IMG/VR virus record: IMGVR_UViG_3300049893_001406
Span: 1 to 45,454 of that record
Origin: a virus
DNA: 45,454 nucleotides
Reading direction: 5' to 3' (one strand)
In this document: piece after piece, positions 4,598 to 22,649 of the stretch
Numbering within the stretch: position 1 is the stretch's first letter
Layout: every line of letters begins with the position of its first letter
The notes under the pieces: model-generated
Database searches by the model: none
The model's input: the letters and a program-made list of their open reading frames with translations, nothing else
What the model was told of the DNA's origin: nothing
Made by a program: the position numbers and the translations under genes

Positions 4598-5635
4598 TCA
4601 ATTACTTACGACAAGGTTATGGGAACACGGGGGAACACCGGCGATTGCCTCAAGGGCCTTGCGCTGGCGGTCCTCCGTTGTGCGAGCGTAGACGTTGAGC
4701 AGCAGTGACGGGGTTCGGTGTCCCGTGATGCTGGCCACTGTTTTCGGATCGCCGGTGTTGCCCATCATGCGGGTGATGGCGTACCGCCGCAGATCGAGAA
4801 CGCCAGCCCCACGGGCCGGGATCGCCTTCCCGTCCTTCCGCTCGCTGGCGATGGCATGGATCCACCAGGCGCTGAACTCCGACCCGCTGGCCCACGGCCT
4901 TCCCAGGTGGCCGACCAGGAACGGAGCACCGGGCGCTACGGCGGCGGCCAACGGCGACAGCAGCCCGGCCGTCACCGACAGGATGGGGTGCTCGTGGATG
5001 TCGCCGGACTTCACGCGCAGACGCAGCCACCCAGGCCTGGTTGTCAGCGCCTCGGGCGTGAGCAGGCGCAGGCTTTCGACGCGGTGCCCGTAGGTGGACA
5101 CTAGGTGGCCTATGGCGGCATTGGCTGGGTGCCACTTCTCCGCCTTCGCCAGCAGCTCGTCGATGCGCGACTCCGTCAGCAGGTTCTGCGGTTGCCGTCG
5201 CGGCGGGCGTGGTCGCATGGCCGGGATCAGGCGCTGGTCGATGCGTTGGCCGTTGTCGGAGGCGAACCGCAGCAGCGCCCGCAGCAGGCGTCGCTGGTGG
5301 ATCTTGAGCACCGGCGCCACGTCCATGCCGACGTCCGCCGCACACTTCCATCCGTGATCATCGCCCAGGGCGAGCAGCACACGCGACGCCTTCGCGCGGT
5401 GATCGGCCGTGGCGTCTGGCCTGGACGAGCAGTAGCGAGCGACCAGCTCGGGCCAGAGGATGGTGGTATATCCATCGTGCGGAGACGCGGCGGCAATCTT
5501 GAGGTTCAGCTCGCGGCAGAACGATTCCGCGTCCAGGCTGCGCCGAAATCCTTTGGTGTTGTTCTTCGCGCCACGGCCGCCCAGGCGCCAGCGTACAACC
5601 CAGCGTTTGCCCTTGCGGTGGACGGAGGCCATCAA
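4598..5635 (-). CDS. int: Tyrosine-recombinase integrase
   Basis: A 345-aa site-specific recombinase expected to integrate the phage at a host tRNA gene. The catalytic set is visible: R185 (GHRVESLRLL), a probable beta-hairpin K209, R284 in DLRRYAIT (the usual His of HxxR is Asp281), H306 in ITGHRTPS and nucleophile Y316 in NVYAR. The R-H-Y spacing is normal. The N-terminus is basic and may bind arm sites. The start is MM; either Met could be used. It is the last gene of the leftward lysogeny operon, and its stop codon lies one base from the tRNA-derived core. The right GGGAACAC pair lies inside its 3' coding end. Confidence 0.93.
   Translation of the reverse strand: MMASVHRKGKRWVVRWRLGGRGAKNNTKGFRRSLDAESFCRELNLKIAAASPHDGYTTILWPELVARYCSSRPDATADHRAKASRVLLALGDDHGWKCAADVGMDVAPVLKIHQRRLLRALLRFASDNGQRIDQRLIPAMRPRPPRRQPQNLLTESRIDELLAKAEKWHPANAAIGHLVSTYGHRVESLRLLTPEALTTRPGWLRLRVKSGDIHEHPILSVTAGLLSPLAAAVAPGAPFLVGHLGRPWASGSEFSAWWIHAIASERKDGKAIPARGAGVLDLRRYAITRMMGNTGDPKTVASITGHRTPSLLLNVYARTTEDRQRKALEAIAGVPPCSHNLVVSN
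4621..4639 (+). other. Right arm-type repeat pair (GGGAACAC x2) inside the integrase 3' end
   Basis: GGGAACAC begins at 4621 and 4631, 10 bp apart and in the same orientation as the left pair at 4436 and 4447. The second copy again sits in GGGGGAACACC. With the tRNA core between the pairs, this gives an arm-core-arm layout. Confidence 0.55.
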
Positions 5636-19121: not shown

Positions 19122-19333
19122 GCGACCACATGGCCGTGGCCATCCGCGCCGTCCACCAGCTCGACCTCCAGACCCACGCCTACCAGGAGGACCACGACGT
19201 CCAGCGCATCGCCGTGGCCCGTAGCCTGGCCGCCCGGCTGTTCCTGGCCCTCGACCGTGAGGCCAAGGCCATCGGGATAGGCGACGAGATCGAGCAGGCC
19301 CGCACCCTGGCCAAGCGCAGGAGAACCGCATGA
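19118..19333 (+). CDS. Unknown 71-aa helical protein
   Basis: Not recognised. It is a mostly helical, charged small protein (HMAVAIRAVHQLDLQTHAYQ, LAARLFLALDREAKAIG). Coupled by ATGA to the DUF1376 gene and to the small terminase gene, so packaging genes are joined to the early chain without a visible break. Confidence 0.55.
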   Translation: MSDHMAVAIRAVHQLDLQTHAYQEDHDVQRIAVARSLAARLFLALDREAKAIGIGDEIEQARTLAKRRRTA

Positions 19334-19815
19334 ACAAAAAACTCACACCAGCACAGATCCGACGCAGGGCGTTTGCCGAGCATGTGGCGGCGGGGATGAG
19401 CGCCACAGAGGCGTACATACGAGCGGGTTACAATTCTAAAGGGCACGCGGCTGAATCAGCAGCATCAACCTTATTGAGAAACGTTGAGGTTCAAGAAATC
19501 ATTAGATCAGCCGCTGAGAAAGCGAGCAAGGGGCGCATCATCACCGCCCAGCGCCGCCGCGAGATCCTGTCCGAGATAGCCGAGGGGGTGACGGCAGCGG
19601 TAGCGAAGGGGCCGATGGGCGAAACATCGAGGGGGCCGCTTCAATCTGAACGGGTGGCGGCCATCAAGCACCTGGACGAACTCGACGGCCTGATACGCCA
19701 GAAGGTCGAGCACAGCGGGCCGAATGGGGCGCCGATTGGTGCGGTGCTGGCGACGGTGGATGAATCGACCATCAGGGCGCGCATCGCCGAGCTGGCGAAG
19801 CGCAAAACCAAATAA
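19330..19815 (+). CDS. terS: Terminase small subunit
   Basis: A 161-aa protein with the small-terminase pattern: LTPAQIRRRAFAEHVAAGMS, ATEAYIRAGYNSKG and AASTLLRNVEVQEIIR, a helix-turn-helix N-terminal domain that recognises the packaging site. The C-terminal half is helical and basic (ARIAELAKRKTK) and may contact the large subunit. The large subunit gene is 1.3 kb downstream, separated by three genes, which is unusual, since the two are often adjacent. Confidence 0.8.
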   Translation: MNKKLTPAQIRRRAFAEHVAAGMSATEAYIRAGYNSKGHAAESAASTLLRNVEVQEIIRSAAEKASKGRIITAQRRREILSEIAEGVTAAVAKGPMGETSRGPLQSERVAAIKHLDELDGLIRQKVEHSGPNGAPIGAVLATVDESTIRARIAELAKRKTK

Positions 19816-19825
19816 CCAACAACAA

Positions 19826-19838
19826 CGGGCAATGCCCG
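19826..19838 (+). promoter_or_regulatory. Small hairpin before the Acb2-RyR gene
   Basis: CGGGC-AAT-GCCCG forms a short 5-bp stem just before the GGGAGAG ribosome-binding site of the gene at 19848. It could tune that gene's translation. This is the first intergenic gap after the long coupled run. Confidence 0.3.
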
Positions 19839-19847
19839 GGAGAGAAA

Positions 19848-20423
19848 ATGACCAGCCCCATCATGCGCTATTTCACGTTCGAGCACCTGCCGGCCAAGCT
19901 GCGCACGGTTTTCATGCCGTTCGGTCTACTGGCCGCCCAACTGGACGGAATGCTTCCCGATGGCCCGGAGAAGTCGGTTGCGCTCCGAAAGCTGCTGGAG
20001 GGGAAGGATGCCGCCGTGCGTTCCGCCCTTGATGCCACCGAGCTGCGCGCCGATGTGCCGGTGATGCTGCCGGCCTTCGCCGAGGTGGCCGCCCGTATCG
20101 CCCATGAGGTCAACCGCGCTTACTGCCGGAGCATCGGCGATCACAGTCAGCCGCCCTGGGATGAGGCGCCGGACTGGCAGCGTTCCAGCGCCATCAAGGG
20201 CGTTCAGTTCCACATGGACAATCCCCTGGCCAGCCCCGAGGCGAGCCACGCATCATGGCTGGCGCAGAAGCTGGCAGAGGGGTGGAAGTGGGGCCCGGTT
20301 AAGGACGCGGACAGGAAGGAACACCCCTGCTGCGTCCCGTACCTGGAGCTGCCCACCGAGCAGCGCTCCAAGGACTACCTGTTCCGCGCCGTAATCCACG
20401 CCCTGCGCGGCGGTGCCAAATGA
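19848..20423 (+). CDS. Predicted Acb2/Tad1-hairpin plus RyR fusion (candidate anti-CBASS/Thoeris)
   Basis: A 191-aa protein of two parts. Residues about 7-66 (YFTFEHLPAKLRTVFMPFG, LPDGPEKSVALRKLLEGKD, AAVRSAL) match the helical-hairpin pattern of Acb2/Tad1 proteins, which bind cyclic nucleotides and block CBASS or Thoeris. Residues about 88-185 match a RyR domain (AYCRSIGDHSQPPW, HASWLAQKLAEGWKWGP, EHPCCVPYLELPTEQRSKD). The fusion would be a soluble sponge or sensor. The gene is an insertion between the terminase subunit genes, a common accessory spot, with its own GGGAGAG ribosome-binding site. Domain assignments are from memory of the families and were not tested. Confidence 0.65.
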   Translation: MTSPIMRYFTFEHLPAKLRTVFMPFGLLAAQLDGMLPDGPEKSVALRKLLEGKDAAVRSALDATELRADVPVMLPAFAEVAARIAHEVNRAYCRSIGDHSQPPWDEAPDWQRSSAIKGVQFHMDNPLASPEASHASWLAQKLAEGWKWGPVKDADRKEHPCCVPYLELPTEQRSKDYLFRAVIHALRGGAK

Positions 20424-20881
20424 GCGACGCCACCGACCCCCGTTTCCCCGGATTCGACGACCACCACCAGATGCGCCGCAGCGACAAGCCGGCCGCGCCG
20501 CTGGACCCCCACAAGCAAGCGCCCAAGGAGATCAAAGACACCGTTTGGGAAATCGTCCAGGGCCGGGCGCCCACGGTGCAGGATGACCCCGACACCGTGA
20601 CCGTGCCCAAGGAATACGTCCAGGCTATTGCCTGGCACGCGACGCGGGAACTCAAGCGGCGCGGCTGCCTCAAGGGCTTCTCTGTGAAAGTGGACCCCGA
20701 TGTCCCGCAAGTGTTCCTGACCTGGGAGCGCCCCAGCGGTATCGTCACCGCCGATGGCAACGCCTACCAGCAGGCCACCGACTGCCTGTCGGCGTTCGTC
20801 CAGAACCGTCCGCCGGAGCATGTTGGGTCGGAGGCGGTTGATGCGTTCATCACGCGCCTGGAGGCGTCGCTCAATCCATGA
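20420..20881 (+). CDS. Unknown 153-aa protein in the terminase region
   Basis: Not recognised. Residues 1-55 are polar and Pro/Asp-rich. The rest looks like a compact alpha/beta domain (YVQAIAWHATRELKRRG, FSVKVDPDVPQVFLTWERP) ending in a helix. ATGA coupling to the Acb2-RyR gene suggests they may act together, perhaps in host-defence evasion; inference from position only. Confidence 0.55.
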   Translation: MSDATDPRFPGFDDHHQMRRSDKPAAPLDPHKQAPKEIKDTVWEIVQGRAPTVQDDPDTVTVPKEYVQAIAWHATRELKRRGCLKGFSVKVDPDVPQVFLTWERPSGIVTADGNAYQQATDCLSAFVQNRPPEHVGSEAVDAFITRLEASLNP

Positions 20882-21090
20882 GCCCATTCATATGCGACGG
20901 ATGCGGAAAGCAGGAAGACGCGAAAACGCTTCCCAAAGGGTGGGTAGTGACAGCGCATGGCCATGTGAAACCGCTTAAATTCACAAGAAGAATTGATATT
21001 AAAAAAATAAGAGACTTGCCGCCTTTAACCTATAAACGCTGGTGCGAGAAGTGTAAGGGCAAGCCGGCGGCAACGGGGCTGATCGACTAA
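20878..21090 (+). CDS. Small four-Cys zinc protein, 70 aa
   Basis: CDGCGKQEDAKTLP near the start and CEKCKGKPA near the end give a four-Cys zinc site. The middle is Lys/Ile-rich and clearly AT-rich DNA (20980-21020), unlike its neighbours, suggesting acquisition. The stop overlaps the large terminase start (TAATG). Function unknown. Confidence 0.6.
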   Translation: MSPFICDGCGKQEDAKTLPKGWVVTAHGHVKPLKFTRRIDIKKIRDLPPLTYKRWCEKCKGKPAATGLID

Positions 21091-22649
21091 TGGCCGCCCT
21101 GGCCGACATCGATGCGGTGGAGCTGCTGATGCTCCAGGACGAGCTGTGCCGGCGCTCGCTGGCCGATCACGTCCAGGCGTGCTACCCGGCATTCAGCCTG
21201 TCGCCATGGCAGCAGCACCTGTGCCGCCGGCTCCAGGCATTCGTGGAGTCCATCGAGCGCGGGGAAAGCCCGCGCCTGATGGTCCACATCATGCCGCAGG
21301 CGGGGAAGACCACGATTGTCAGCCGTGCGTTCATCGCCTGGATCATGGGACGGCATCCCGAGTGGGACGGCATCATGGCGTCCTATGCCAGCAGCCTGAG
21401 CCGGAAGAACAGCCGGTGGGTGCGTAATCGCCTGCGGTCGCCAGAACATCAACGCATATTCCCTGGATGTAAGCTGGCCGACGATTCCCAGGCCATCGAA
21501 GACATGACCATGACCGATGGGCACCAGCTCATCAGTCGCGGTGTGGGCGGTGGCAGCTCGGGCAATCCGGCCAATTATGTGGTGATCGATGACCCTTTCA
21601 GCAATCGTCAGGACGCCAGCTCTCCGGTTGTGCAGGAGAACGTCGAGGATTGGTATGACGGTACGGCAGTCGGCCGCCTCGGGCCAGGTGCCGGGGTGCT
21701 CATCATGCATACCCGCTGGGACATCATGGATCTTGCGGGCCGCCTACTGAAGCGGTCGGAAGACGGGAAGGATGATCCGCACATCGACAAATGGGAGGTA
21801 ATCAGCTACCCGGCCGAGTGGGAACCCGGCGCACCGCGCGAGTTCTACGCCTTCGAGAAGGGCGCCAATGGCGCCGAGACCGGATGGCTGATCAGCCGCT
21901 TCCGCCCCGTGGATTTGAAGCGCAAAAAGGCCAACCTCCCGCCGCGTGACTGGCTGTCCCTGTTCCAGCAGAAGCCGGTGCAGGAGGGCGGGAATATCAT
22001 TAAGACCAGCTGGATAATCGAGGAGCCATGGCCCGAAGGCTGGCGCCCCATCGTCTGGCAAGCATGGGATCTCGCCGGCACGAAGCAGGACGCGCACGAC
22101 GGTGGATGCTACTCGGTCGGCGTGGCCATCGCCCAGGACTGGATGCGCCGCTGGTGGCTGGTGGACGTGGTACGCGGGAAATGGGATTCCGGCGAATTGT
22201 GTGAGCAGATCCTGACCTTCGCCCACAAGTGGAAGGCCAACGCCGTGTGGGGCGAGGACCCGGTTGCGCTCTACCTGGTGCCGTTCCTGCGGGATCGGAT
22301 GCGGGACAGCGGGAAGCACGCGCACTTCTCCCGCGTCAGCGTCCAGGGACGGGGCGACAAGGTGGCCAGGGCGCAGGCCAGCCTGGTGCCGGTGATGAGC
22401 AACGGCTCATTCTACGTCCCCAAGGGCGCCGCTTGGCTCAATGACCTCAAGGTCGAGCTGGGCCAATTTCCCCAGGGCTACAAGGACCAGGTGGACGCGC
22501 TGTCGCTGGCCTTTGCCGAGGCCATGCCGCGCGCCGTGGCCAGCCCGCCACCGCCCATTCATAAACCCAAAGACCCGACCGCCATCCGGTGGGACGACCT
22601 CGGCGGTGATGAGCCGCCAGAACGCAGGAGATCCGCATGGAAACGGTAG
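21090..22649 (+). CDS. terL: Terminase large subunit (TIGR01630-like)
   Basis: A 519-aa packaging motor. The ATPase has Walker A PQAGKTT (residues 69-75) and Walker B YVVIDD (163-168). The nuclease has D327 in WDLAGTKQD and a late DQVDALSL (D469). Overall it resembles TIGR01630-type phage terminases. It should fill procapsids through the portal encoded downstream; whether it works by headful packaging or at a specific site cannot be decided here. The start overlaps the preceding gene by one base (TAATG), and the 3' end overlaps the next gene by 13 bp. Confidence 0.9.
   Translation: MAALADIDAVELLMLQDELCRRSLADHVQACYPAFSLSPWQQHLCRRLQAFVESIERGESPRLMVHIMPQAGKTTIVSRAFIAWIMGRHPEWDGIMASYASSLSRKNSRWVRNRLRSPEHQRIFPGCKLADDSQAIEDMTMTDGHQLISRGVGGGSSGNPANYVVIDDPFSNRQDASSPVVQENVEDWYDGTAVGRLGPGAGVLIMHTRWDIMDLAGRLLKRSEDGKDDPHIDKWEVISYPAEWEPGAPREFYAFEKGANGAETGWLISRFRPVDLKRKKANLPPRDWLSLFQQKPVQEGGNIIKTSWIIEEPWPEGWRPIVWQAWDLAGTKQDAHDGGCYSVGVAIAQDWMRRWWLVDVVRGKWDSGELCEQILTFAHKWKANAVWGEDPVALYLVPFLRDRMRDSGKHAHFSRVSVQGRGDKVARAQASLVPVMSNGSFYVPKGAAWLNDLKVELGQFPQGYKDQVDALSLAFAEAMPRAVASPPPPIHKPKDPTAIRWDDLGGDEPPERRRSAWKR

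Follow-up and report, generated by a model that had tools for sequence, protein, structure and literature searches.

A phage protein encoded between the terminase genes joins an Acb2/Tad1-like hairpin to a RyR domain and is a candidate two-headed sponge for bacterial immune signals

Phage proteins that contain a RyR domain cleave or sequester the Thoeris signals 2'cADPR and 3'cADPR (PMC13232231). Mycobacteriophage DyoEdafos gp78, named RyDEP in a May 2026 preprint, is a glycosidase for both molecules, and eight RyDEP homologs from other phages were assayed in the same study. None of the eight was catalytic; six bound 2'/3'cADPR and the other two formed no stable complex. The homologs from a Ruegeria phage and a Pectobacterium phage acted as sponges with nanomolar affinity and protected phages against Thoeris (PMC13232231). 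Nucleotide binding has likewise been established for Acb2 and Tad1, the hairpins of which make hexamers; the Acb2 protomer is described as a short helix followed by two long antiparallel helices, and Tad1, in which the C-terminal helices are classed in the Acb2_Tad1 hairpin family of Pfam, binds gcADPR (PMC12043709). Here we describe a phage protein in which domains related to these two groups are joined in a single polypeptide.

The window, by which we mean the whole 45.5-kb virus contig (45,454 nucleotides) that was analysed, contains an intact ORF of 191 aa (19848..20423, + strand) that fuses an Acb2/Tad1-like hairpin to a RyR domain. Translation would start at an ATG at 19848, with a Shine-Dalgarno-like GGGAG (19838..19842, +) located 5 nt upstream. 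The gene for the terminase small subunit, terS (19330..19815, +; Terminase_2 2.5e-13), ends 32 bp before the fusion ORF, and that for the large subunit, terL (21090..22649, +; phrog_38 1.5e-79), follows after two small ORFs, all on the same strand. The first of these, which encodes 153 aa (20420..20881, +) and overlaps the end of the fusion ORF through an ATGA at 20420, returned no convincing family match. The second is a 70-aa CxxC-containing ORF (20878..21090, +) that overlaps both of its neighbours; its resemblance to anti-TRAP is weak (E 0.05) and falls far short of the cut-off. A slot like that in the window is found in Gordonia phage Soos (L291, 1501-1659), where a hairpin of the window subfamily lies in a small-gene cluster just behind terS. 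The contig also carries an integrase-like ORF (4598-5635, a weak match) and RecT/exonuclease-type genes, and its terL is at most about one third identical to the terL of the best-matching phages among the matches listed.

The first-pass annotation had placed the ORF between the terminase genes and had read its C-terminal part as a RyR domain, and both points are borne out. The domain spans about residues 81-187 (20088..20402, +, for residues 81-185), and PF02026 matches the fusion ORF with 38.7 bits (1.2e-9), above the curated cut-off of 27.4. The AlphaFold2 model of the domain has a pLDDT of 95-98 across most of its length, and when compared with the PDB by Foldseek it retrieved RyR R12 domains, the best match being the Bt-hRyR_12 chimera (E 3.9e-4), which points to an R12-like fold. 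Alignment with RyDEP (PMC13232231), the residue numbering of which was verified against the DyoEdafos gp78 sequence itself, pairs His134 (20247..20249, +) with the catalytic H75, Trp137 (20256..20258, +) with the adenine-bracing W78, His159 (20322..20324, +) with the phosphate-contacting H100, and Asp176 (20373..20375, +) with the catalytic D117. The first three residues are kept in 105 of 105 aligned sequences and D176 in 104 of 105. The window protein thus shares with the RyDEP family the PF02026 domain and counterparts of H75, W78, H100 and D117, but differs from it in possessing an N-terminal hairpin, in lacking Q54 and in having no neighbouring NARP1 genes. Q54 is one of the RyDEP active-site residues that were mutated in PMC13232231; in the window protein, A115 is aligned there, in a stretch where the alignment is loose, and the corresponding position in relatives from Pectobacterium and Ruegeria phages is occupied by A or I.

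The presence of the H/D catalytic dyad could be taken as a sign of glycosidase activity in the RyR half, which, like the DyoEdafos RyDEP, would then convert cADPR signals into ADPR. The dyad, however, is equally present in the relatives from Pectobacterium and Ruegeria phages, and the homologs that were assayed from such phages were non-catalytic (PMC13232231). With Q54 replaced and no NARP1 genes found in the window or in the available fusion loci, enzymatic activity appears highly improbable. The RyR domain shares 56% identity with a protein from Pectobacterium phage Nepra and 51% with one from Ruegeria phage V12, compared with 37%, over 91 aa, in the case of the glycosidase RyDEP. Both phage proteins come from the groups that supplied the sponges of PMC13232231, whether or not they are the very proteins assayed there. 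The closer relationship to members of the sponge groups, the loss of Q54 and the lack of NARP1 genes together make a sponge likelier than an enzyme. The possibility that the RyR domain binds a signalling nucleotide had also been raised at the outset; phage RyR proteins related to it do so (PMC13232231), the ligand residues are kept here with the exception of Q54, and the window domain probably binds cADPR signals as well.

The N-terminal domain (residues 4-61; 19857..20030, +) matches phrog_1761 (4.6e-26) and phrog_5120, both of which are families with no assigned function. The hairpin family comprises 311 phage records, which are mostly short free-standing proteins filed as function unknown. 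Its motif is ERTVALRKLLEGKDAAVRA, and 37 hairpin sequences agree without exception at E41, R47, K48, L50, E51, K53, D54, A55 and R58. Residue 22 (19911-19913), which is Ser in 35 of 36 relatives, is Phe in the window protein.

The proposal of the first-pass annotation that this domain is an Acb2/Tad1 hairpin survives as distant homology and not as Pfam membership. PF24729 (Acb2_Tad1_hairpin) gives the window hairpin 15.1 bits where 27 are required, so that the domain fails Pfam alone, and among its relatives 14 of 37 match this family at E <= 0.5, the best with an E of 0.0018. Comparison of the window hairpin family by hhalign with a sister set of PF24729-type hairpins (A4; 29 of 29 match PF24729) gave 96%, an E of 4.2e-9 and a score of 46.1, whereas the maximum score among 200 column shuffles was 16.3. 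The A4 profile in turn matches the solved 'Acb2 homolog 43' (9ptq) at 3e-5 and, weakly, Tad1 (E ~0.07). An early iterated HMM had fused the two hairpin subfamilies, but a rerun with stricter inclusion keeps them apart, and since they are separate in strict HMM searches the homology link rests on hhalign. Direct profile comparison of the window hairpin with T4 Acb2 was not significant, and neither single-sequence searches of the PDB with the hairpin nor a search with the profile of its family returned a match. In the AlphaFold2 model (pLDDT 90) helices are predicted at residues 4-9, 16-35 and 40-68, the first short and the other two long and antiparallel, which is the layout described for the Acb2 protomer. 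Foldseek of this model against the PDB retrieved nothing significant, a result that, with no positive control, is weak evidence either way for a helical hairpin of 60 residues. Among viral models ranked behind the closest matches, the named family that recurred most was that of the Acb2/Tad1 hairpin proteins (E 0.02 to ~0.8, probability up to 1.0), and a hairpin-containing fusion protein of phage phiCB2047-B, discussed below, ranked 19. Lack of a structural match for residues 1-70, which the first-pass annotation had named as grounds for refutation, thus received a mixed answer, with Acb2/Tad1 hairpins matched among viral models and not in the PDB. These profile and model comparisons support the view that the window hairpin is a distant homolog of Acb2/Tad1, below Pfam-level membership.

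Three further observations concern the assignment of this domain. Acb4 was considered as the hairpin family and rejected, as the Acb4 fold is dsRBD-like (PMC11722364). When hairpin-only and RyR-only rows were aligned together (A1), the hairpins seemed to fall on the RyR 'KD' motif, and this alignment was discarded. Among the structural matches of the hairpin model is an Ochrobactrum phage protein (BFVD A0A6G6XYP8) named 'Anti-TRAP domain-containing'.

In T4 Acb2 the Y8A substitution disrupts cyclic dinucleotide binding and F82 stacks on the base (PMC12657218), while T68M lowers affinity (PMC12657230). In the hhalign register, where the alignment to T4 Acb2 alone is not significant, Y8, T68 and F82 correspond to F11, R47 and L61 of the window protein. 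Only the Y8 position keeps an aromatic residue (F11); with His counted as aromatic, 33 of 36 relatives have such a residue here as well. T68 and F82 are both replaced. Of the two invariant arginines R47 and R58, the latter is aligned to T4 Arg79. The window hairpin therefore resembles Acb2 (T4 Vs.4, Pseudomonas phage p26) in its predicted helix layout, its distant homology via PF24729 and its aromatic at Y8, but departs from it in falling below the Pfam cut-off, in the changes at T68 and F82 and in its fusion to a RyR domain. Because the T4 Acb2 ligand positions differ, the pocket appears to be altered and we claim no specific ligand; the case for the hairpin binding any nucleotide at all is evenly balanced.

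These substitutions could indicate that the Acb2-fold hairpin only assembles the protein, raising the avidity of a single-signal sponge in which the RyR domain binds cADPR. Such a role would accord with the hexamers made by Acb2 and Tad1 hairpins (PMC12043709) and with the occurrence of the two domains in either order (see below), as expected for a simple assembly tag. The hairpin family is, however, mostly free-standing in phages, implying a function of its own; its invariant charged residues E41, R47, K48, E51, K53, D54 and R58 go beyond the look of a packing surface, and the sister hairpins score as members of the Pfam family to which known sponges belong. We thus consider a purely assembling hairpin unlikely, if by no means far-fetched. 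In a further explanation the hairpin is Tad1-like and binds, as the RyR domain would, cADPR-type signals, to give one broad anti-Thoeris sponge instead of one directed against both Thoeris and CBASS. Tad1 has its C-terminal hairpin in the same Pfam family and binds gcADPR (PMC12043709), and its similarity to the window hairpin is a weak profile match (E 0.07) made through the sister set A4. However, the A4 profile has its best solved relative in an Acb2 homolog, and the gcADPR pocket of Tad1 is lined by loops of its N-terminal beta-sheet domain (PMC12043709). That domain is absent here, as the window models have no strands before the hairpin, which starts at residue 4. A sponge with two cADPR-type heads is thus distinctly unlikely.

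The joining of a hairpin to a RyR domain is not confined to the window, as four further fusions were found. One (L001) has the domain order and hairpin subfamily of the window protein, with which it shares 58% identity in the hairpin and 56% in the RyR domain, compared with 6% in the linker (about residues 62-80; 20031..20087, +); both domains are thus kept between the two proteins and the linker is not. In another (L028) a PF24729 hairpin (52 bits) is N-terminal to the RyR domain (43.5 bits). The order is reversed in the remaining two, in which RyR is followed by a PF24729 hairpin, one from locus L131 (88.2 bits) and the other, SUFG_00048 (AGH07415.1; 33.4 bits), from the cultured Sulfitobacter phage phiCB2047-B. 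The hairpin passes Pfam in L028, L131 and phiCB2047-B. SUFG_00048, annotated as hypothetical, resembles the window protein in combining both domains in one protein, of 188 aa, but differs in its reversed order and in having a hairpin of the canonical PF24729 subfamily. In addition, five phages (L180, L074, L133, L149 and L241) carry separate hairpin and RyR genes on the same strand, with 27-373 bp between the domains; the two genes of L074 overlap, the stop codon of the first sharing bases with the start codon of the second (TAATG). Three Gordonia phages (FlyingTortilla, Hanem and ChisanaKitsune) each have a canonical hairpin gene and a RyR gene ~40 kb apart.

Across 214 distinct RyR loci, part of which were gathered with fusion queries, ten hairpins lie within 1 kb of RyR, all within 373 bp and all on the same strand, and the 1.08 Mb of flanking sequence at 1-4 kb contains none. 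An earlier set of 142 RyR loci had two further hairpins, 4.8-5.5 kb away, and a base-rate expectation of 0.05 within 1 kb. When 95 loci were collected with RyR-only queries, a sample that is not fully blind as two of its three queries were picked as neighbours of fusion RyRs, three hairpins were recovered, all in known fusions (the L001, L028 and L131 contigs), and again none at 1-4 kb. On the RyR tree the fewest changes that separate the fusion state from all other rows number four, of which the starred branches force only one; with 81 of its 138 branches open, the tree is too poorly resolved to prove independent origins. Plasmid records gave RyR or hairpin matches and no fusion, and fusions make up a small minority of RyR proteins.

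RyR is a promiscuous domain, and the hairpin is one of several fusion partners. It is also fused to Phage_gp49_66 (PF13876, the N4 Gp49 family) in L070 (5494-6324, 108.5 bits) and L047 (5599-6315, 53.8 bits). In a separate observation, RyR is often followed within the ORF by an unnamed C-terminal module, 'YIGRR..D..YGTGL.F..GQVR' (L002-L008, L012 and L021), which had no Pfam match in L003, the single case tested. The Gp49 family may itself be worth testing as a counter-defence module, as N4 gp48 is the sponge Acb4 (PMC12657230). Fusion of RyR to Phage_gp49_66 and other modules with no known signal link would fit a protein unconnected with counter-defence, whose two promiscuous modules came together by chance in a slot for accessory genes within the packaging operon and serve another role; that several fusions or pairs are located near terminase, portal or capsid genes points the same way. 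Against this stand the recurrence of the combination in two orders and with two hairpin subfamilies, an adjacency far above the base rate and the proven immune-signal binders in both families, which leave chance joining hardly credible.

We propose that the fusion protein acts in counter-defence as a two-headed sponge for bacterial nucleotide immune signals, which in our view is the best explanation of the protein as a whole, although on sequence, models and analogy we hold it at even strength. The reading fits the data as both families hold proven sponges and the domains have been joined repeatedly, in either order, through a drifting linker. The C-terminal RyR domain would most likely bind 2'cADPR and 3'cADPR tightly without cutting them. 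The N-terminal hairpin would most likely drive formation of a higher oligomer, as in the Acb2 and Tad1 hexamers, and bind a second signal, which could be another cADPR isomer or one of the cyclic di- or trinucleotides used by CBASS or type III CRISPR. A single protein produced during infection would in this way blunt two alarm pathways, or one of them more strongly. The more specific proposal is that a RyDEP-type cADPR sponge and an Acb2/Tad1-like cyclic-oligonucleotide sponge, built together several times and in both orders, disarm two different signal classes at once, namely Thoeris and CBASS (or type III CRISPR); we judge this possible, at somewhat short of an even chance. As RyDEP forms dimers and Acb2 hexamers, one may speculate, by analogy, that the protein forms a hexamer with six cADPR sites.

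The literature searched for RyR together with Acb2, Thoeris or CBASS yielded the RyDEP preprint alone, besides an unrelated NAD review, and the main text of PMC13232231, its supplement aside, contains no mention of Acb2, Tad1, hairpins or such a fusion. Provisionally, the fusion thus appears to be absent from the searched literature, a body of work that mostly excludes subscription papers. If the proposed function is correct, a single small gene would let a phage block two alarm pathways of bacteria, and hairpin-RyR pairs would provide a marker for finding more immune-signal sponges. It would also give a testable function to a hairpin family of 311 phage records, and phrog_1761/phrog_5120 would, if the two-sponge reading holds, represent a new branch of immune-signal sponges. 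More broadly, it would suggest that infected hosts may often use cADPR and cyclic oligonucleotides side by side as signals.
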